From positions 1 to 64,000 of the forward strand of contig QQUJ01000001.1 of the NCBI GenBank assembly GCA_008501635.1: DNA of 64,000 nucleotides. The letters are read 5' to 3'. The position numbers were made by a program, and so were the translations under genes. The DNA comes from Pseudomonadota bacterium (GTDB lineage Bacteria > Pseudomonadota > Gammaproteobacteria > QQUJ01). Below are positions 27,573-35,966 of this stretch, one piece after another (the first letter of the stretch is position 1; every line of letters starts with the position of its first letter). The notes under the pieces are model-generated. The model made no database searches and was not told where the DNA came from. It saw only the letters and a program-made list of their open reading frames with translations.

Positions 27573-27759
27573 TCAGCGCGTAACGGTGCGCAGATCGGCC
27601 AGCAACTCTCCGTAGATCGCTTCCAGGGCCGTTCCGAAGGCCTGCACCGTACTGTGTACCGTGCGGTCGGCGGCCTCCTGTCGCACCTCATAGCGTTTCG
27701 CAGGGAGCAGTACCTGATGGCCCGCGTCCAGGCTGAACTCCAGTGCGATGTGAACCACG
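27345..27759. repeat. direct repeat copy B (415 bp) flanking the nar block
   Basis: This is the second copy of the 14399-14813 repeat, same orientation. Its right side runs into an intact lipoprotein gene and the lipid transporter operon. Its left side cuts the DUF3549 sequence abruptly. Confidence 0.92.
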
Positions 27760-28181
27760 ATGCGGGTAGTCGTCACCTCGCGTTCGAAACGGATCAGCCG
27801 GCCGTAGAGTTTTTGCTCGGCGCGGCCCTCATCCTGAAAGCGTGAAATCTCGCGGACAGCACCCGCAGCGCCCAGATAGCTGGCCAGGTGATCGCGGATC
27901 AACAGCGTCGGCGAGTCGCTCCAGTGGTGATAGTGGTAGGGACGCAGATCCAGCGGCTGCTCGGGGACGAAATGGAGAAGCGCACGTTCGTGGTAGAGCC
28001 CGTTCGCCCGCAGGCGCGGGATGCCCAACGACCGGGTAATGACCGGGTTGGCTACAGGCGTCGGCCGAGGCTCCGGCAGGCGATAGAAACGCTGTTCGGG
28101 CAGGGCGCCGGAGCCCACGCAACCGGTCAATAAAGCGCCCAGGGTGAGTGGGAGCAGAATGGTGCGGAGAATGCTGTTCAT
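27573..28181 (-). CDS. ABC-transport auxiliary lipoprotein (PqiC/LetC-like)
   Basis: This 202-residue lipoprotein has a signal peptide ending in the lipobox LTGC (Cys21) and then QRFYRLPEP and ALLHFVPEQPLDLRPYHYHHW, typical of the ABC_trans_aux lipoproteins that accompany MCE transporters. It would sit in the outer membrane or periplasm and help move lipid. Its start overlaps the MlaD stop by 4 bp (ATGA), so it is translationally coupled and is the last gene of the operon. Its C-terminal 60 codons lie within direct repeat B. Confidence 0.88.
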   Translation of the reverse strand: MNSILRTILLPLTLGALLTGCVGSGALPEQRFYRLPEPRPTPVANPVITRSLGIPRLRANGLYHERALLHFVPEQPLDLRPYHYHHWSDSPTLLIRDHLASYLGAAGAVREISRFQDEGRAEQKLYGRLIRFEREVTTTRIVVHIALEFSLDAGHQVLLPAKRYEVRQEAADRTVHSTVQAFGTALEAIYGELLADLRTVTR

Positions 28182-29128
28182 TGCGCCGCCTCCGTGGCTT
28201 TGTCGGCGGGTGATTCTCCACTCAGCAGTCGACCGGGATTGTGGCGAATCTCGCGGCTGAATTCGCTGAAGTTGCGGCTGGTGCTCTCCAGATTGTGGAC
28301 GATGCTGTCCATGTTCTGCGAGACGGTACTCAGTGAGTCACGCAGGGTTTCGACCGCCATACGCAGGTCGGTACGATTCTCCGTCACTAACGCGTGAGAT
28401 TCGCTGAGCAGGTTTTCGAGTTGCTTGCCTGCGCCTTGAAATTCGCCGGCGAGTTGTGCCAGGTCACGGGTAATGCGTTCGCTCTGATCGAGCAAGGTGA
28501 CTACCCGCTGACGATTATCGGGACTCATCAGTTTGTTGAGTTCGCCGGCGCTATCGTTGAGGTTGCCAAGCAAACGTTCCACTTCGCTGGTCACCCGGCC
28601 CAGCTTGTCACCCACATCGGTGGCGAGACGGTCGACGTGTTCGTTGAGGTTGGTCAACAAGGGACGGATGCCGTTGCGTGACAGATTCTCCATCTCCAGG
28701 GCGACGCGGTTCATGGTGACGAAGATATCCTGCGGATCAGCCCCGCTCAGCGTGGCGCCCGATTTCAGCTGTTGGGTGCTGCGTCCCTCTTCGATATTGA
28801 CCACTTTGTCCGAAAGCAGCCCGGGGGCAATGATATAGGCGACGCTGTCTTCGGGGATTTTCCAGTCGGAACGGATCGCCAGAGTGAGCCGATAACGCGT
28901 GCGCGCCGCGTCGCGCTGCGGCGTGATGGCCAGCACCTGGCCGATACGAAAACCGCCGTAGGTGACTGCGGTGCCGCTGCGCACGCCCGGCACCTGCTCG
29001 AACAGAGCGTAGTACTGTTCGGCGCTGACATCACGCCCGGTGATACGGAACAGCACCACCAGCAGCAGCCCGAACATGGTCAGGGTGAAGAGGCCGACCA
29101 GAAGATAATTGACGTTGTCGCGTTTCAT
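28178..29128 (-). CDS. mlaD: MlaD/MCE-family lipid-binding subunit
   Basis: The 316-residue protein has one N-terminal membrane helix (NYLLVGLFTLTMFGLLLVVL), one MCE domain (about residues 38-120, with GVRSGTAVTYGGFRIGQV) and a long helical, coiled-coil-like C-terminus (150-300). It is longer than E. coli MlaD (183) and closer to the substrate-binding proteins of PqiB/Ttg2C-like systems with extended helices. It should hold phospholipid in the periplasm. A 232-bp gap without a gene separates it from mlaF upstream, so a secondary promoter may lie there. Confidence 0.9.
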   Translation of the reverse strand: MKRDNVNYLLVGLFTLTMFGLLLVVLFRITGRDVSAEQYYALFEQVPGVRSGTAVTYGGFRIGQVLAITPQRDAARTRYRLTLAIRSDWKIPEDSVAYIIAPGLLSDKVVNIEEGRSTQQLKSGATLSGADPQDIFVTMNRVALEMENLSRNGIRPLLTNLNEHVDRLATDVGDKLGRVTSEVERLLGNLNDSAGELNKLMSPDNRQRVVTLLDQSERITRDLAQLAGEFQGAGKQLENLLSESHALVTENRTDLRMAVETLRDSLSTVSQNMDSIVHNLESTSRNFSEFSREIRHNPGRLLSGESPADKATEAAQ

Positions 29129-29360
29129 CTCGATGAATTTTTATTGTTGCCCAATAAACCCTGTCGCCGCTTATTGAGTGCTCAGACTGCCGGGCACATC
29201 GAAAGCTTCGAAAAGTTGGACTGAAGATACCACAGGCGGGTGCTGGTTGACGGAACCAATCGACGATCAAGCGTTGCCTGCATCTGCAGGTGTTGTCGGG
29301 TATGTCCGATGGTGCCAATCGTTTCGCCGCCTGGCAGGGAGTCGAGCGCGGTCATATCGT

Positions 29361-30164
29361 TTACGGACGTCCTGTCAGACGCCGCAGGTAGGCGTCGACA
29401 TCCGGTTCCAATTCACGCGGCAGGCGGTTGATCAGGCCCTGAATACGTTCGTGATCGGAGTTGCGCACCTCGTCGACACTGCCGGTCAGGAGGATTTCAC
29501 CATGATCGAGCACGGTGATGCGATCGGCGATCTTGAAAGCGCTCTCCAATTCATGGGTCACCACCACGATAGTGATATTGAGCGCACTGCGCAGTTTGAG
29601 GATAAGCTCGTCCAGTTCCGCCGCGGCGACGGGGTCGAGTCCCGCCGAGGGCTCGTCGAAGAAAAGCATTTTCGGATCCATGATCACGGCCCGCGCCAGA
29701 GCGGCGCGCTTGATCATGCCCCCCGAAAGTTCAGCGGGTTTGAGCTTTTCGAAGCCGGCCAGATTGACAATTTCGAGTTTCATGCGGGTCATGATTTCAA
29801 TGGTGTTGCGGTCGAGCCGTGTGTGCTCGCGCAGCGGCATGCTCACATTTTCGCCGACCGTCATCGAGCCGAACAGCGCACCGCCCTGGAAGGCGACCCC
29901 CATCTCCTTGCGCAGGGCATCGAGTTCGCGACCGCTCATGCGGGTGATGTCGCGCCCCAGCAGGCGGATGCTGCCCGATGTGGGATGGGCAAGCCCGAGC
30001 AGATGCCTGAGCAGTGTGCTTTTGCCCGATCCGCTGCCGCCCATGATCACCATGATCTCACCGCGATGAACGGTGAGATTGATCCCTTTGAGGATCTGGC
30101 GTTCACCGTAGTGGGTGACCAGGTCCGTGACTTCGATCAGCGGTTCGCGTGGCGGAATCGTCAT
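29361..30164 (-). CDS. mlaF: MlaF-type lipid ABC transporter ATPase
   Basis: This 267-residue cytoplasmic ATPase has Walker A GGSGSGKST (about residue 42), a Q-loop near VAFQGGALF, the signature LSGGMIKRAALARA, Walker B MLFFDEP and the switch His in VVVTHELES. The FQGGALFGSMTVGENV segment is typical of the MlaF/Mkl group. It lies 10 bp after mlaE. In E. coli, MlaF binds the STAS protein MlaB; here a STAS gene immediately precedes mlaE. Confidence 0.92.
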   Translation of the reverse strand: MTIPPREPLIEVTDLVTHYGERQILKGINLTVHRGEIMVIMGGSGSGKSTLLRHLLGLAHPTSGSIRLLGRDITRMSGRELDALRKEMGVAFQGGALFGSMTVGENVSMPLREHTRLDRNTIEIMTRMKLEIVNLAGFEKLKPAELSGGMIKRAALARAVIMDPKMLFFDEPSAGLDPVAAAELDELILKLRSALNITIVVVTHELESAFKIADRITVLDHGEILLTGSVDEVRNSDHERIQGLINRLPRELEPDVDAYLRRLTGRP

Positions 30165-30174
30165 GCCCCGGTAT

Positions 30175-30963
30175 CTAGCGATTGAGGAAGTAGGTGAAGA
30201 TCATGTCGGAGACCACGATGCCGCTGATGGAGAGCACCACCGCACGGGTTGTCGCACGGCCGACACCCTCGGCACCGCCACGAACCTGAAAACCGTTGGC
30301 CACACCCACCAGCGTGATGATGACTGCAAACACCATACTTTTGACCAGGCCCTGGTAGATGTCCTCCGTGGTCAGCACCTCGAGCGTTTGCGAGCCGTAG
30401 ACGCTTAGCGAGTTGCCCAGTTCGGCGGCGGTAAACACGCCGCCGCCCAGCAGCCCCATGAAGTCGGCGAGTATGGTGAGTGTTGGAACCATGATCAGCA
30501 TCGCCAGCAGCAGGGGAGCAGCAAGATAGCGCACGGGATTGACGCCGATCACCCGTAGCGCATCGATCTCCTGCGACTCATGCATGGTGCCGATGCGCGC
30601 CGTGATCGCCGATCCCGAGCGGCCGGCCACCAGAATGCCAACGATAAGTGGCGCAAACTCGCGCGTCACCGAGAGTGCAATGCCGACCACCACCTGCGCC
30701 TCGGCGCCGAACTTCTTCAATGTTTCGATACCCTGGATTGCGAGCATGATGCCGACGGCGAAGGAGAGTACCGCAACGATGGGGATAGCCTGGACGCCGA
30801 TCTGCATCGCCTCGCGAAAGACACTGTCGAGGCGTACCGCCTGACGTCGCGAAGCGCCGAAAATCAGCCAGTAGAGACACTCGCCCAGCAGCGTGGTGAT
30901 ATAGCCGAGCTCTTCGATCGCCCCGTAGACGCGCCTCCCCAGTTGTTCTACAGCGGTGCGCAT
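30175..30963 (-). CDS. mlaE: MlaE-type permease
   Basis: The 262-residue inner-membrane permease of the MCE lipid transporter has about five helices. Family marks are EFAPLIVGILVAGRSGSAI and GTMHESQEIDALRVIGVNP, the coupling segment, followed by a C-terminal helix ending MIFTYFLNR. Its first base overlaps the end of the STAS gene at 30963, giving tight coupling. The direction of lipid movement cannot be told from sequence. Confidence 0.92.
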   Translation of the reverse strand: MRTAVEQLGRRVYGAIEELGYITTLLGECLYWLIFGASRRQAVRLDSVFREAMQIGVQAIPIVAVLSFAVGIMLAIQGIETLKKFGAEAQVVVGIALSVTREFAPLIVGILVAGRSGSAITARIGTMHESQEIDALRVIGVNPVRYLAAPLLLAMLIMVPTLTILADFMGLLGGGVFTAAELGNSLSVYGSQTLEVLTTEDIYQGLVKSMVFAVIITLVGVANGFQVRGGAEGVGRATTRAVVLSISGIVVSDMIFTYFLNR

Positions 30964-31301
30964 CAGCGTTCCAGAGGTTCCTGAAGCCAGTCGGTAATGG
31001 AGCTGCGGATGGCGAATACCTTGTCGAGCCGCGCCAGATGCAGCACCTGCATGGCGGTATCACTGACGCCGGCCAGCCCGAATACCCGGCCCTGCTCGCG
31101 CGCCAGCTGAAACCCCTCCACCAGGGTTGCAACGCCTGAGCTGTCGATATACTTCACAGCCGAGAGATCGATCAAGACATGTGCGCTGGCACGTACGTGA
31201 TGCAATATCTGCTTGCGAGCCTGTGGCGATTGCTGCAGATCCACATCACCGGTGAGCGCGATGACTGTGAATTGCCCCTCCACGTGTACCGGGTACTCCA
31301 T
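30963..31301 (-). CDS. STAS-domain anti-anti-sigma/MlaB-like protein
   Basis: This 112-residue single STAS domain protein has the phosphorylatable motif IDSSGVATL (Ser54/Ser55) at the start of helix 2, as in SpoIIAA/RsbV. MlaB, the STAS subunit of the E. coli lipid transporter, sits in the same kind of operon. Here the gene lies between an anti-sigma-type kinase gene and mlaE, and its stop overlaps the mlaE start. It could be both: a switch protein phosphorylated by the kinase and a binding partner of MlaF. That double role is inference. TAGGAG precedes the start. Confidence 0.85.
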   Translation of the reverse strand: MEYPVHVEGQFTVIALTGDVDLQQSPQARKQILHHVRASAHVLIDLSAVKYIDSSGVATLVEGFQLAREQGRVFGLAGVSDTAMQVLHLARLDKVFAIRSSITDWLQEPLER

Positions 31302-31340
31302 TGACCTACTCCTACGCTTGTGACCAACAGCCTATCGGAT

Positions 31341-31781
31341 CTAGCCTCCATCGGCTATCGCGGGTGGGTACCGTTTGCGCATTTCCAACACGTTACCGCC
31401 ATCGGGCGGGGGTGCGGGGTAGCGGATTTCGTCCATGATCTTATGGATCAATGACAGACCCAAACCACCGGGTCGCACTTCGGACAAGTCTCGCGGTTGC
31501 AGCGTGCTGGTGTCCACGGTTGGTGCAAAATCGATAATCCGGAACGTGAGCCAACCCGATTCGCGCTCCAGCATCAGCACCATATCGCCCGATCGCTGTG
31601 CCCCGTAGGCGTGCTGAATAACGTTCATACAGGCCTCGTTCACCGCAACCACCAATTGATGCCGCGTATCGCCATCGACCCCGGTCCCTTCCAGCGCGTT
31701 CTGAAGCTGTTCGCGGACGACTTTCAGCGCCGCGGCTTCGGCCGGCACGCGGAGCGTGAGAAGCTGTTCAACCCTGCCCAT
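31341..31781 (-). CDS. RsbW/SpoIIAB-like HATPase serine kinase
   Basis: The 146-residue HATPase_c_2 protein has the N-box VNEACMNVIQHAYG and the G-box RPGGLGLSLIHKIMDEI. These proteins are anti-sigma factors or switch kinases that phosphorylate STAS partners on Ser. Its start lies inside the end of the phosphatase gene (14-bp overlap) and it is followed by the STAS gene, so the three form a classic partner-switching set. No cognate sigma factor is nearby. Confidence 0.87.
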   Translation of the reverse strand: MGRVEQLLTLRVPAEAAALKVVREQLQNALEGTGVDGDTRHQLVVAVNEACMNVIQHAYGAQRSGDMVLMLERESGWLTFRIIDFAPTVDTSTLQPRDLSEVRPGGLGLSLIHKIMDEIRYPAPPPDGGNVLEMRKRYPPAIADGG

Positions 31782-33480
31782 GGTGATTGCCCACCATCAG
31801 TATCGTCATGTCATCGTGCAGCGCCTCGGGTGTGGCGCGCAACTGCTGGACGATTCGCTCCACGCGATCGCGCGGGGCCTGGGATTCCGAGGTGGTGATC
31901 ATCTCCACCAATCCCTTAACGCCTAATGCCTGTCCGTCGATACGCTTCGCTTCGGTGATGCCATCGGAGACGATGACCAGTGTGCCGCCGTCCAGACTGA
32001 CCTCGCCGGCCGGGAAATCCATCCCCGGCACTATTCCCAGGGGTGGTGCCTGAGCACCGAACGACTGCCTCAACTTGGTACCGCGGAACAAAAGCGCCGG
32101 CGGATGGCCGGCATTGGCGATGCGGATGGTGCCCCGCGAGGGGTCATAGAGCCCGGCAATCATGGTAACGAACATGCCGCGAATGGTGGTTTCGCAGATT
32201 TCATCGTTGATCTGGGTGAGCAACTGCGCCGGATCGTGAATGCGTTTACCCAGGCAGCGGAACAGGCTGGTGGTCTTGGCCATCAGCAAAGCGGCGTTCA
32301 TCCCTTTACCGGATACGTCGCCCAGGTTGAAGAAAATTTTGCCGTCGGGCAGGCGGAAAAAGTCGTAGAAGTCACCGGAGAGGTCACGTGCCGGGACATT
32401 GACGCCGACGATCAGCGCATCGTCCAGCGGTGGCGGCAACAGGCTGCGTTGGATCTCGCGCGCCATCTCGATCTCGCGGTCGAGTTCCGCGGCCAACTGA
32501 TCGCGTTCGCGCAGGGTCTGTTCCAGACGCCATGTGAGTTCCTGATAGCTCAGGTTCTCCTCGCTGAGCCGCAGGTTGGCCTCGCGCAGAATGTCCTGGA
32601 AATCGCTTTGCTGGGGAATTGTCAGGCTGAGGGCCGCAGCGGCTTCTTCCACCGTCTCCGGCACCGCTATCAGCAGCTGATCGGCGGTGTGCGAGTCAAA
32701 ATCAAAGTGCTTGCGGAGTAATTTGCGGCACCTGTCGATGACGTGGGTCTTGTCCTCGACCGAATAGACCGCGGCCAGCCAGTCGGCGCAGTAGAGTATG
32801 CGACAACGGGTCTCTATCTCTTCGGGCGCTGCCGTCCCGCAGTGGTGATGCTGGTCGAGCAGGGCGGCTATCTCCTCGGGCAAGCCCCACTGTCGAGCCA
32901 GGTAGGCGGCCACCTGGTCGTGAGTCACGCCGAAGTGCTGCTGTTCAAGCGCGTAGCGGTTGTCGGGATCGGCTGCAAGGATCTCCGGCAATTCCTCCAG
33001 CCGTTCGGGCCAGCGCATGAACATGACCAGCAGGCCGCAGTCCTGAAGCAGCCCAAGGGTAAAGCACTCGTCGGCGTCCTGACCGAGCGCTTTGGCCAGC
33101 AGCCGGGCACTGGTGGCACGGCGTAATGCATCCTCCCAGTGATGCGCGGGATCGAGGCCGGAGATCGCATCCGGACGCAGGGCATCGCGCACGGCGAGGC
33201 AGAGTCCGAGGTTGCGCAACGCCCGGTTTCCCAGCACGGTAACCGCCCGTTTCACCGACGTCACTTCCCTGCCCAGGCCGAAAAAAGGCGTATTGACCAC
33301 GCGCAACAACTCCGCGGTGAGCGTCGCATCCTGGCATGCCAATTCCGCCAGTTCATCGGTGGTGACATCGGCGCGCGTACAGGCCTGAATCAGTGCCATG
33401 GCAGCTTGACGCGGTTGCGGTAGGTCGCGCGGACGAATTTCGCTCAGCAGGTTGAGTGCGGTCGGGTTTTCGGTTGTCAT
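31768..33480 (-). CDS. HDOD-domain PP2C/SpoIIE phosphatase
   Basis: The 570-residue cytoplasmic protein combines an N-terminal HDOD domain (about residues 15-215, with ATLTAELLRVVNTPFFGLG and the RAVTVLGNRALRNL segment), a coiled-coil linker (about 300-350) and a C-terminal SpoIIE/PP2C phosphatase. The phosphatase has the Asp-bearing motifs DLSGDFYDFF and LGDVSGKGMNAAL, and later VIVSDGITEAK. It should dephosphorylate the STAS protein in response to a signal read by HDOD. ATG 33480 was taken; the frame is open to 33522. It is the first gene of the switch/Mla operon and is divergent from the acyltransferase-esterase gene. Confidence 0.88.
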   Translation of the reverse strand: MTTENPTALNLLSEIRPRDLPQPRQAAMALIQACTRADVTTDELAELACQDATLTAELLRVVNTPFFGLGREVTSVKRAVTVLGNRALRNLGLCLAVRDALRPDAISGLDPAHHWEDALRRATSARLLAKALGQDADECFTLGLLQDCGLLVMFMRWPERLEELPEILAADPDNRYALEQQHFGVTHDQVAAYLARQWGLPEEIAALLDQHHHCGTAAPEEIETRCRILYCADWLAAVYSVEDKTHVIDRCRKLLRKHFDFDSHTADQLLIAVPETVEEAAAALSLTIPQQSDFQDILREANLRLSEENLSYQELTWRLEQTLRERDQLAAELDREIEMAREIQRSLLPPPLDDALIVGVNVPARDLSGDFYDFFRLPDGKIFFNLGDVSGKGMNAALLMAKTTSLFRCLGKRIHDPAQLLTQINDEICETTIRGMFVTMIAGLYDPSRGTIRIANAGHPPALLFRGTKLRQSFGAQAPPLGIVPGMDFPAGEVSLDGGTLVIVSDGITEAKRIDGQALGVKGLVEMITTSESQAPRDRVERIVQQLRATPEALHDDMTILMVGNHHGQG

Positions 33481-33635: not shown

Positions 33636-35966
33636 ATGGAGTCGACGTTTCATACAGAGATAAGCCCTTCCACCTACGAGTGGTCGGTAAGGGCGATCAC
33701 TACCATCAAGAAGCTGCTGAAGGTCAATATCAAACTTCATCACAGCGAAGGCCAGATCGCCAACGGCCAGATCTTTCTTTTCAATCACTTTGCCCGATTC
33801 GAAACCTTTATTCCTCAATACCTGATCTACCAGGAAACCGGCGCCTACTGTCGCTCCATCGCTTCGAGTGAGTTTTTCAAGGAAGGCGATGTCTTTTCCA
33901 ACTACCTCCTCAGCCTGGGCGCCGTACCCAACAAGCATCCCCGATTGTTGCCGTTTCTCGCCGAGGAGATCCTGCGTGGACGCAAGGTGATCGTCTTCCC
34001 CGAGGGAGGCATGGTGAAGGATCGTCGGGTACTCGATAAACAGGGGCGTTACAGCATCTATTCGCCGACCGCGCGTGAGCGCCGTAAACACCACACCGGG
34101 GCGGCACTGCTGGCGCTGGCGCTCGATGCGCTGAAGGCTGCGATCAACAATGCCTTTCAACACGGAGACGACGCCCGTATCGAGAAATGGATGGCGCATC
34201 TGGGGCTGGAGCACGAGAGCGATCTTCTCAAGGCGGCACGCAAACCCTCGCTCATCGTCCCGGCCAATATCACCTTTTACCCGATTCGCATCGGCGGCAA
34301 TCTGCTGCATCGGGGAGTGGAGCTGGTGTCGCGCGGTTTGAGCCGGCGTCTGACCGAGGAGTTGCTCATCGAAGGCAATATCCTGTTACGTGATACCGAC
34401 ATGGATATCCGACTCGGTGACCCGGTGGATCCTGCCTCCTTTTGGAAGCACTGGGAACTCAGCCTCTTTCGCCACTTCACGCGCAATATCGAAAATATTG
34501 ACCAGATGCTGGCTCTGTCGCGCAACGGCGAGCGCTGGACGGATCGGGCCGCCGCGCGGTGGTTGCGTAATAAATCGCTGCGTATTCGCAACCTCTACAT
34601 GCACCGCATGTACGAAGGCGTGACGATCAACCTGAGCCATCTGGCCTCGAGTCTCATCATGCAGTTGATCAATCGTGGCGAAACCCGCTGTAAACGCGAG
34701 GTGTTCGACCGCATCGTCTATGTCACGCTCAAAAAACTGCAGCAGGAACCTACCGTGTATCTGCATCGCAGTCTGCGCAACCCGGACTGTTACCGCAGCA
34801 TGGCCGCCGGTCAATGCCAGGGTATCGAGCAGTTCTTCGCCGTGGTGAGCGAAGCCGGATTGGTGCAGAGGGACGAGTCTTACTACCACTTCCTTCCCAA
34901 GCTGCGCGAGGAGCACGAGTTTCACAGTATCCGGCTCGAAAACCCGATTGCGGTTTATGCCAACGAGGCCGATCCGATTGCCGCCGTTTCGACAGCGTTG
35001 CGGACAGCGCAGAAAACCGTCGGAGAACTGACTCCGCAACAACTCGCGGTCTACTATTTCGATGATGAGTGCGTGAGTTACACATGGGATCGCGCCCAAT
35101 ACCACAAGCCGCGGCACGCCGCCATCAATAGTCAGGAGACCGCGAGCGAAAGCGGCGAACCCTTCCTGCTGCAACCGTCGCAGCCGCGCCCCCTGGGCAT
35201 CATGCTGGTCCATGGCTTTCTTGCCTCGCCTGCCGAACTGGCCGAGTTCGGTGCCAAACTGGAGGCGCAGGGCTACACGGTGCTTGGCATCCGCCTTAAA
35301 GGCCATGGAACGTCGCCCTGGGATCTGCGTGACCGGGAATGGGAGGATTGGCTGGCGTCGGCAAGGCGCGGTTACGAGATTCTGTCGCAATTGGTCGAAC
35401 GGGTGGTGATCATAGGTTTCTCTACGGGAGGCGCATTGTCGCTGTTGCTGGCATCCGAGCACCCGCATCGCCTGGCCGGGGTATGCGCGGTGTCGGTGCC
35501 GCTGCGGTTCCGCAACCGCAACATGATTTTCGTGCCCTTGCTGCACGGGGCCAACCGGGTGGCGAGTTGGCTCCCCTTGTTCGAAGGCATCATCCCGTTT
35601 CGACTCAACGAATCGGAACATCCTCGCATCAATTACCGCAATATACCGGTGCGGGGACTCTACGAACTGCGGCTGCTGGTCGATCAGGCGGAGAAACGTC
35701 TGAAGGAGGTCACGTGCCCGGTGCTGGTGATGCAGGGCGATGAGGACAAGGTCGTCGATCCGAGGAGTGCGGAGATTCTTATGATGAAACTGGCGTCGCC
35801 GGCAAAAAAACTGCACGTGATTCCCTCTGAACGCCACGGGATTCTGAATGAAGACATCGGCGACACGCACGAGATCCTCGTGGGTTACTTGCAGGCGTTG
35901 GAGAGCGGTGTCGTATACACCGACGCCGATATGGATGGCGCCGATTTGGTTCCCGGCTTAGCGTGA
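33636..35966 (+). CDS. acyltransferase-alpha/beta hydrolase fusion
   Basis: The 776-residue protein joins two lipid-type enzymes. The N-terminal part (residues 30-280) has PlsC-like acyltransferase motifs: NHFARFE for the NHx4(D/E) site, and VIVFPEGG. A helical middle (about 290-500) follows. The C-terminal part (about 515-760) is an alpha/beta hydrolase with MLVHGFLASPAEL, nucleophile elbow GFSTGG, Asp in QGDEDKVVD and His in SERHGILNE, similar to carboxylesterase/monoglyceride lipases. All key residues are present, so both halves could be active. It is divergent from the partner-switch/Mla operon. No signal peptide is seen. A role in membrane lipid turnover is inferred. Confidence 0.8.
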   Translation: MESTFHTEISPSTYEWSVRAITTIKKLLKVNIKLHHSEGQIANGQIFLFNHFARFETFIPQYLIYQETGAYCRSIASSEFFKEGDVFSNYLLSLGAVPNKHPRLLPFLAEEILRGRKVIVFPEGGMVKDRRVLDKQGRYSIYSPTARERRKHHTGAALLALALDALKAAINNAFQHGDDARIEKWMAHLGLEHESDLLKAARKPSLIVPANITFYPIRIGGNLLHRGVELVSRGLSRRLTEELLIEGNILLRDTDMDIRLGDPVDPASFWKHWELSLFRHFTRNIENIDQMLALSRNGERWTDRAAARWLRNKSLRIRNLYMHRMYEGVTINLSHLASSLIMQLINRGETRCKREVFDRIVYVTLKKLQQEPTVYLHRSLRNPDCYRSMAAGQCQGIEQFFAVVSEAGLVQRDESYYHFLPKLREEHEFHSIRLENPIAVYANEADPIAAVSTALRTAQKTVGELTPQQLAVYYFDDECVSYTWDRAQYHKPRHAAINSQETASESGEPFLLQPSQPRPLGIMLVHGFLASPAELAEFGAKLEAQGYTVLGIRLKGHGTSPWDLRDREWEDWLASARRGYEILSQLVERVVIIGFSTGGALSLLLASEHPHRLAGVCAVSVPLRFRNRNMIFVPLLHGANRVASWLPLFEGIIPFRLNESEHPRINYRNIPVRGLYELRLLVDQAEKRLKEVTCPVLVMQGDEDKVVDPRSAEILMMKLASPAKKLHVIPSERHGILNEDIGDTHEILVGYLQALESGVVYTDADMDGADLVPGLA

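Follow-up and report, generated by a model that had tools for sequence, protein, structure and literature searches.

The question raised by this locus is why the phosphatase, serine kinase and STAS protein of a partner switch should be encoded at the head of an operon for an MCE lipid transporter. The operon occupies positions 27573-33480, on the minus strand, of the window, by which we mean the whole 64,000-nucleotide stretch of contig QQUJ01000001.1 that was analysed, and an earlier note on this DNA had proposed that the three proteins form a direct phospho-switch on lipid transport. In this study, we consider it probable, at roughly two chances in three, that the operon encodes an Mpc-like MCE lipid transporter in which a phosphorylatable STAS protein, served by a dedicated kinase and phosphatase, takes the part of MlaB, and that the unphosphorylated STAS protein would be the on state, with the kinase switching transport off and the phosphatase switching it back on. 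The proposal is partly supported, its core well past mere adjacency, by the conserved gene order, by the co-occurrence of the STAS protein with the window-type ATPase even where their genes are unlinked, by the placement of the STAS protein where MlaB would be expected and by the tail of the ATPase.

Gene order and co-occurrence with the F* ATPase

Seven aligned STAS orthologues were used to scan an archive of 84,980 species genomes, which yielded at least 577 relatives, and 80 of these loci, selected by the DSSG motif of the STAS protein, were analysed. The earlier note had suggested looking for the same gene order in other genomes, and 68 of the 80 loci keep it, with a kinase gene upstream of the STAS gene and an MCE transporter gene at most 400 base pairs downstream; eight have the kinase and no MCE gene, and the remainder are at contig ends or have no kinase. 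The operon layout is far beyond chance. The kinase, alone or fused to the phosphatase, is encoded directly upstream of the STAS protein in all but one of those loci that were uncut by a contig end. The relatives that carry the module belong to the Gammaproteobacteria and Rhodospirillales, with a few assigned to other groups. The sensor domain of the phosphatase is variable (HDOD in 35 of 72, and GAF in all four of the non-HDOD phosphatases that were checked using Pfam), and phosphatase-kinase fusions occur in a number of loci. The stop codon of the STAS gene overlaps the start of mlaE by one base (TGATG) in the window, exactly as had been noted; an overlap of the two genes was found in 29 of 102 loci, most of the others having a gap of less than 60 nucleotides, and it is not itself conserved.

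The window-type MlaF, which we call F* and which was recognised at a threshold of E<=1e-75, accompanies the STAS protein closely. In an even sample of the window's class, comprising 369 Gammaproteobacteria genomes, the STAS protein was found in 58, F* in 59 and both in 56 (61 with either; Fisher p 5e-60), and the arrangement is present in about one in six of the genomes sampled. In fifty of the pairs the genes are no more than 5 kb apart, and contig ends separate a further two. Since linked pairs are inherited together, they carry little weight as independent evidence. The association also holds among the genomes without a linked pair: four have both genes, two the STAS gene only, three F* only and 308 neither (p about 1e-6). 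Moreover, all eight archive genomes whose STAS module lies away from MCE genes have F* elsewhere (61-66% identity), each time in an F*-MlaE operon. The two genes are far apart in eleven genomes in total, one of the archive eight apparently being identical with G042 of the class sample.

These results bear on the reading that makes the module an ordinary partner switch for a sigma factor or another regulator, as are RsbU/V/W, HsbR/HsbA and SypE/SypA, its place beside the transporter reflecting envelope co-regulation. The STAS protein and kinase do most resemble the RsbV/SpoIIAA and RsbW families, and some known partner switches have no sigma client, for example SypE/SypA (PMC10120452), but a conventional switch leaves the co-occurrence with F*, including the unlinked cases, unexplained. 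No sigma factor gene was found in or beside the operon, as had also been claimed earlier, and among the 80 archive loci the conserved neighbours of the STAS gene are MCE genes, not sigma genes. A regular expression for sigma motifs gave no match over all loci, the pattern being too crude to count. As for another client beside the STAS gene, only a subset with FHA, PPM and CHASE2-cyclase genes was found, and none is conserved across most of the 80 loci; the subset itself speaks for the conventional switch, which we nevertheless regard as improbable. In this subset (L079, L080, L099, L110, L111, L113, L130 and L193), an orthologous phosphatase-kinase-STAS or kinase-STAS set has no MCE genes beside it; its neighbours encode a PPM phosphatase and an FHA protein, with mutS and ferredoxin genes close by and, in some, CHASE2-cyclase genes. 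F* is encoded elsewhere in all of these genomes except that of L193.

F* occurs in three layouts. The first is that of the window, phosphatase-kinase-STAS-E-F*-D-lipoprotein. The second is phosphatase-kinase-STAS-F*-E-D-C (L048, L069, L075, L195 and L208), with a variant in which E-D-C stands beside the STAS gene and a convergent F* at the end (L190, L191, L239 and L240). In the third, F*-E-D-C stands alone and the switch module is elsewhere (L184, L186, L188 and L189). On a quick F* tree of low resolution, the layouts switch several times. Profile searches found neither MlaB nor any other STAS protein in the F*-E-D-C loci, and they gave clear MlaB matches in the canonical mla loci of module-bearing genomes; judging by these matches, it is as if the switch STAS protein replaced MlaB in F* operons. 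At L055, L064, L072 and L197, the STAS gene is followed directly by F* with no adjoining permease gene, an arrangement that favours the ATPase as partner.

It could be argued that the STAS protein only serves the F* transporter constitutively, as a structural subunit like MlaB, the kinase and phosphatase acting elsewhere or without a strong effect on transport and the cluster reflecting co-expression alone. In E. coli, MlaB is indeed needed for MlaF assembly irrespective of known phosphorylation (PMC5016091, PMC7367683), and MlaB proteins themselves, like two STAS-MlaE fusions, also keep the serine. A purely structural STAS protein would, however, be expected to remain beside its transporter, whereas in the relocated modules the kinase, phosphatase and STAS protein travel as one set. 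Together with the nearly constant position of the kinase gene in the uncut loci and the invariance of the catalytic residues, this leaves the purely structural role with a low probability in our view.

Several genomes appear to have more than one transporter per switch. At L045, L053, L062 and L200, a single F* gene adjoins two permease sets, an Mpc-like E-D-lipoprotein set and a Mla-like E-D or E-D-C set without an ATPase of its own, which suggests a shared ATPase. Genomes G135, G262, G306 and G324 have two F* transporters and one STAS module. In G021, an MlaE-D-C operon without an ATPase (L242, contig C44) was found, as was a STAS-F* pair without a permease (L046, contig C14). A single phosphorylatable STAS-ATPase pair might power two lipid transporters in the same cell, as a switchable unit that both share and between which it is allotted, a tentative suggestion that we consider unlikely; if it were true, the kinase and phosphatase would set lipid traffic via both envelope routes at once.

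Switch proteins and the putative control of F*

The predicted switch protein is a STAS protein of 112 amino acids (30963-31301, minus strand; Pfam STAS 3e-17) with a predicted phosphosite at Ser54. Its IDSSG motif is intact, and the earlier description of an intact DSSG motif was right. Asp53-Ser54-Ser55-Gly56 is found in 57 of 57 sequences from a sample that was not selected by the motif; the 80 archive loci were so selected and are uninformative on the conservation of Ser54. The kinase (31341-31781, minus strand; 146 amino acids; Pfam HATPase_c_2 1.6e-27) is RsbW/SpoIIAB-like, and its Glu49, Asn53, Asp84 and Gly105-Gly108 are invariant or nearly so among 133 relatives (E49 and N53 in 100%). 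The phosphatase (31768-33480, minus strand; 570 amino acids; Pfam HDOD 6e-47, SpoIIE 1e-44) is of the SpoIIE/RsbU type and is predicted to act as both sensor and STAS phosphatase, and the metal-ligand Asp residues D30, D48, D166 and D217 (PP2C-domain numbering) are present in 100% of 123 relatives. Judging by these residues, all three proteins look active. The module has the sequence marks of a partner switch: a SpoIIE phosphatase with its metal-binding Asp residues, a HATPase_c_2 kinase with the N-box Glu and Asn and a STAS protein with Ser after Asp. What would mark it as sigma-controlling, a sigma or anti-sigma client, was found neither in the operon nor in the conserved neighbourhood. In a single-sequence model of the STAS protein (mean predicted local distance difference test score, pLDDT, 73), Ser54 starts helix 54-69, and the solved folds closest to it were of the RsbV/SpoIIAA types first, with MlaB also significant.

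The ATPase (29361-30164, minus strand; ABC_tran 1e-33; LSGGM signature) belongs to the F* subfamily and ends in a Y-L-R-R-L-T tail. In E. coli, the C-terminal extension of MlaF places Tyr261, Leu265 and Leu266 at the interface with MlaB (PMC7367683). The F* tail is about three residues shorter, aligns with this extension and keeps Tyr-x3-Leu: the Tyr is found in 125 of 126 sequences (Phe in one) and the Leu at the Leu265 position in 126 of 126. The possibility that the window MlaF has no C-terminal extension and hence could not grip the STAS protein was ruled out, as the tail retains Tyr-x3-Leu. In E. coli, MlaF deprived of the extension continues to bind MlaB (PMC7367683). Three sampled ATPases whose neighbouring permeases have a STAS-like extension at the N-terminus lack the tail, as does the ATPase of a third, STAS-less MCE system of the genome.

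On the phospho-switch reading, the unphosphorylated STAS protein would bind the helical subdomain of F*, gripped by the C-terminal tail as in the E. coli MlaF-MlaB pair, and this binding would be needed for an assembled, ATP-hydrolysing transporter. Phosphorylation of Ser54 by the RsbW-like kinase would release the STAS protein and shut the pump; the HDOD-PP2C phosphatase, presumably cued through its HDOD domain, in place of which many relatives have GAF, would dephosphorylate it and restore transport. The sign of this control is taken from E. coli MlaB, on which both ATPase activity and the retention of MlaF in the complex depend (PMC5016091) and whose Thr52, the equivalent of Ser54, is central in the MlaF interface, the phosphomimetic T52E lowering MlaF binding (PMC7367683). 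On this evidence, the STAS protein would work like MlaB, yet the curated test does not place it in the MlaB family.

Several observations weigh against this reading. By family score, the STAS protein is of the anti-sigma-antagonist type (above the TIGR00377 cut-off), and it does not reach the NCBIfam mlaB_1 equivalog (32.6 bits against a cut-off of 90). A Ser or Thr at the Ser54 site is conserved in most STAS proteins, and its presence alone therefore proves little. Of the five exceptions to the STAS-F* pairing, two (G011 and G230) are at contig ends and three look real: G329 has the STAS protein without F*, and G081 and G250 have F* without the STAS protein. Mutual information between the STAS protein and the kinase, MlaF, MlaE or MlaD, calculated over 76 non-redundant operons, showed no pair type above shared ancestry. 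E. coli MlaB T52A keeps MlaF binding while ATPase activity is abolished (PMC5016091), hence the site is no simple binding switch and may govern catalysis in addition to binding. Finally, the FHA, PPM and CHASE2-cyclase neighbours of some STAS orthologues make a second output possible.

A second output leads to a further alternative, in which the STAS protein has a dual role as the MlaB of F* and as a signalling component, for example through free phospho-STAS or free kinase that reports transporter status to transcription or to second-messenger enzymes. In several genomes, two F* transporters appear to share a single STAS gene, which fits this idea, as do the FHA, PPM and cyclase neighbours in one subset, although these neighbours could be unrelated, and we consider it the least probable of the readings weighed here.

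Related genes in the same genome and in known systems

The source genome (3.93 Mb, 98% complete) has three MlaE loci: that of the window, one on contig C30 and one on contig C19. Contig C30 carries a canonical mlaFEDCB operon with its own true MlaB and an MlaF with the C-terminal extension, and contig C19 carries the third MCE set, without a STAS protein. The statement that the operon's STAS protein is the only one holds for the operon and fails for the genome, where seven PF01740 matches were found, including the MlaB of contig C30. In the earlier note, a separate MlaB that binds MlaF was to count against the phospho-switch; taken literally, such an MlaB exists, but it lies in a separate operon with its own MlaF and was ruled out as a refutation. 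The window MlaF is 43% identical to the canonical MlaF of contig C30 and belongs to a different subfamily, F*, which is why a separate MlaB does not refute the idea, and the contig C30 MlaB does not compete for the window ATPase in any obvious way. The only SpoIIE-domain phosphatase and the only intact RsbW-like kinase in the genome are those of the window, leaving no competing machinery. A broken second partner switch was seen on contig C30 (L025:1773-2413, about 110.3-110.9 kb), in which an HsbA-like STAS protein (DSSALG) is followed by a 99-amino-acid piece that fuses a receiver-like start to a HATPase end, and the PP2C is gone.

Compared with E. coli MlaFEDB (PMC7367683, PMC5016091), the operon shares the pairing of a STAS protein with an MlaF-type ATPase, the Ser/Thr after a conserved Asp and the Tyr-x3-Leu tail. 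It differs in that its STAS protein precedes mlaE, is of the anti-sigma-antagonist type and has a kinase and phosphatase of its own, and in that the operon has a long MlaD and a PqiC-like lipoprotein and no MlaC, while the genome keeps a separate MlaFEDCB. Matched by published description rather than by sequence, the chimeric Mla-Pqi system MpcEFDA of Brucella abortus (PMC12436622) is similar in its order E-F-D-lipoprotein, its long MlaD, its PqiC-like lipoprotein and its STAS domain with the permease and ATPase; in Brucella, however, the STAS domain is fused to the N-terminus of the permease MpcE, whereas in the window it is a separate protein. The 2025 Mpc paper does not mention phosphorylation and describes no kinase or phosphatase (PMC12436622). 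Among the relatives, other MlaE-type permeases also carry a STAS or STAS-like domain at the N-terminus (L250, L251 and L245); the motif is DSAG in two and WNTG, without Asp-Ser, in the third, and the neighbouring ATPases have no Tyr-x3-Leu tail.

With RsbU-RsbV-RsbW and SpoIIE-SpoIIAA-SpoIIAB, the module shares the PP2C phosphatase, the HATPase serine kinase and a STAS substrate with a DSSG phosphosite, but no sigma factor accompanies it and the client that we predict is an ABC ATPase. The SypE/SypA system of Vibrio fischeri (PMC10120452, PMC4517449) likewise places a STAS protein under a kinase-phosphatase, with no sigma client known; unlike here, the SypA output is biofilm control by an undefined mechanism, with no MCE transporter.

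The phosphoregulation of MlaB was hypothesised by Thong et al. in 2016 (PMC5016091) and Kolich et al. in 2020 (PMC7367683), without a kinase or phosphatase. The idea itself is not new; what is new here is a candidate kinase and phosphatase and a wider family. The open-access literature yielded no account of an MCE transporter linked to a kinase-phosphatase-STAS set, preprints and most subscription journals being outside the scope of the search. The control of intermembrane lipid transport after synthesis of its components is an open question, for which this family offers a matched kinase, phosphatase, STAS protein and ATPase in many species, and such a matched set turns the question of MlaB phosphorylation into a plain biochemical test. 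If the proposed control is true, partner switching moves from transcription to the direct control of an ABC transporter.

Remaining genes of the operon and its surroundings

The gene identities, order and strand given earlier were confirmed by sequence and Pfam. The phosphatase, kinase and STAS genes had been described as overlapping end to end, which is correct for the phosphatase and kinase genes (14 nucleotides) and incorrect for the kinase and STAS genes, as these are separated by 39 nucleotides (31302-31340, minus strand), in which AGGAG, the STAS gene's own ribosome-binding sequence, precedes its ATG. Downstream lie the genes for the MlaE-family permease (30175-30963, minus strand; Pfam MlaE 2e-69; TIGR00056 above cut-off), for F*, for an MCE protein that is a long MlaD of 316 amino acids with a C-terminal extension (28178-29128, minus strand; Pfam MlaD 9e-13) and for an ABC_trans_aux, PqiC/MpcA-like lipoprotein (27573-28181, minus strand; Pfam ABC_trans_aux 6e-6, at the cut-off; "LLTGC" lipobox). 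By Pfam and NCBIfam, MlaE, MlaF and the long MlaD of an MCE-transporter set are all present in the operon; the three score below the Mla-specific NCBIfam cut-offs and MlaC was not found there. A stretch of 232 nucleotides (29129-29360) separates mlaF from mlaD, genes that abut or overlap in most of the relatives viewed, and an insertion or an internal promoter is possible.

The flanking genes, identified using Pfam, are narGHJI and those for an acyltransferase/hydrolase, a GGDEF-EAL protein and an Opp-type ABC protein. The divergent neighbour on the plus strand (33636-35966) encodes a protein of 776 amino acids that matches an acyltransferase weakly, has an alpha/beta-hydrolase domain and is possibly lipid-related.

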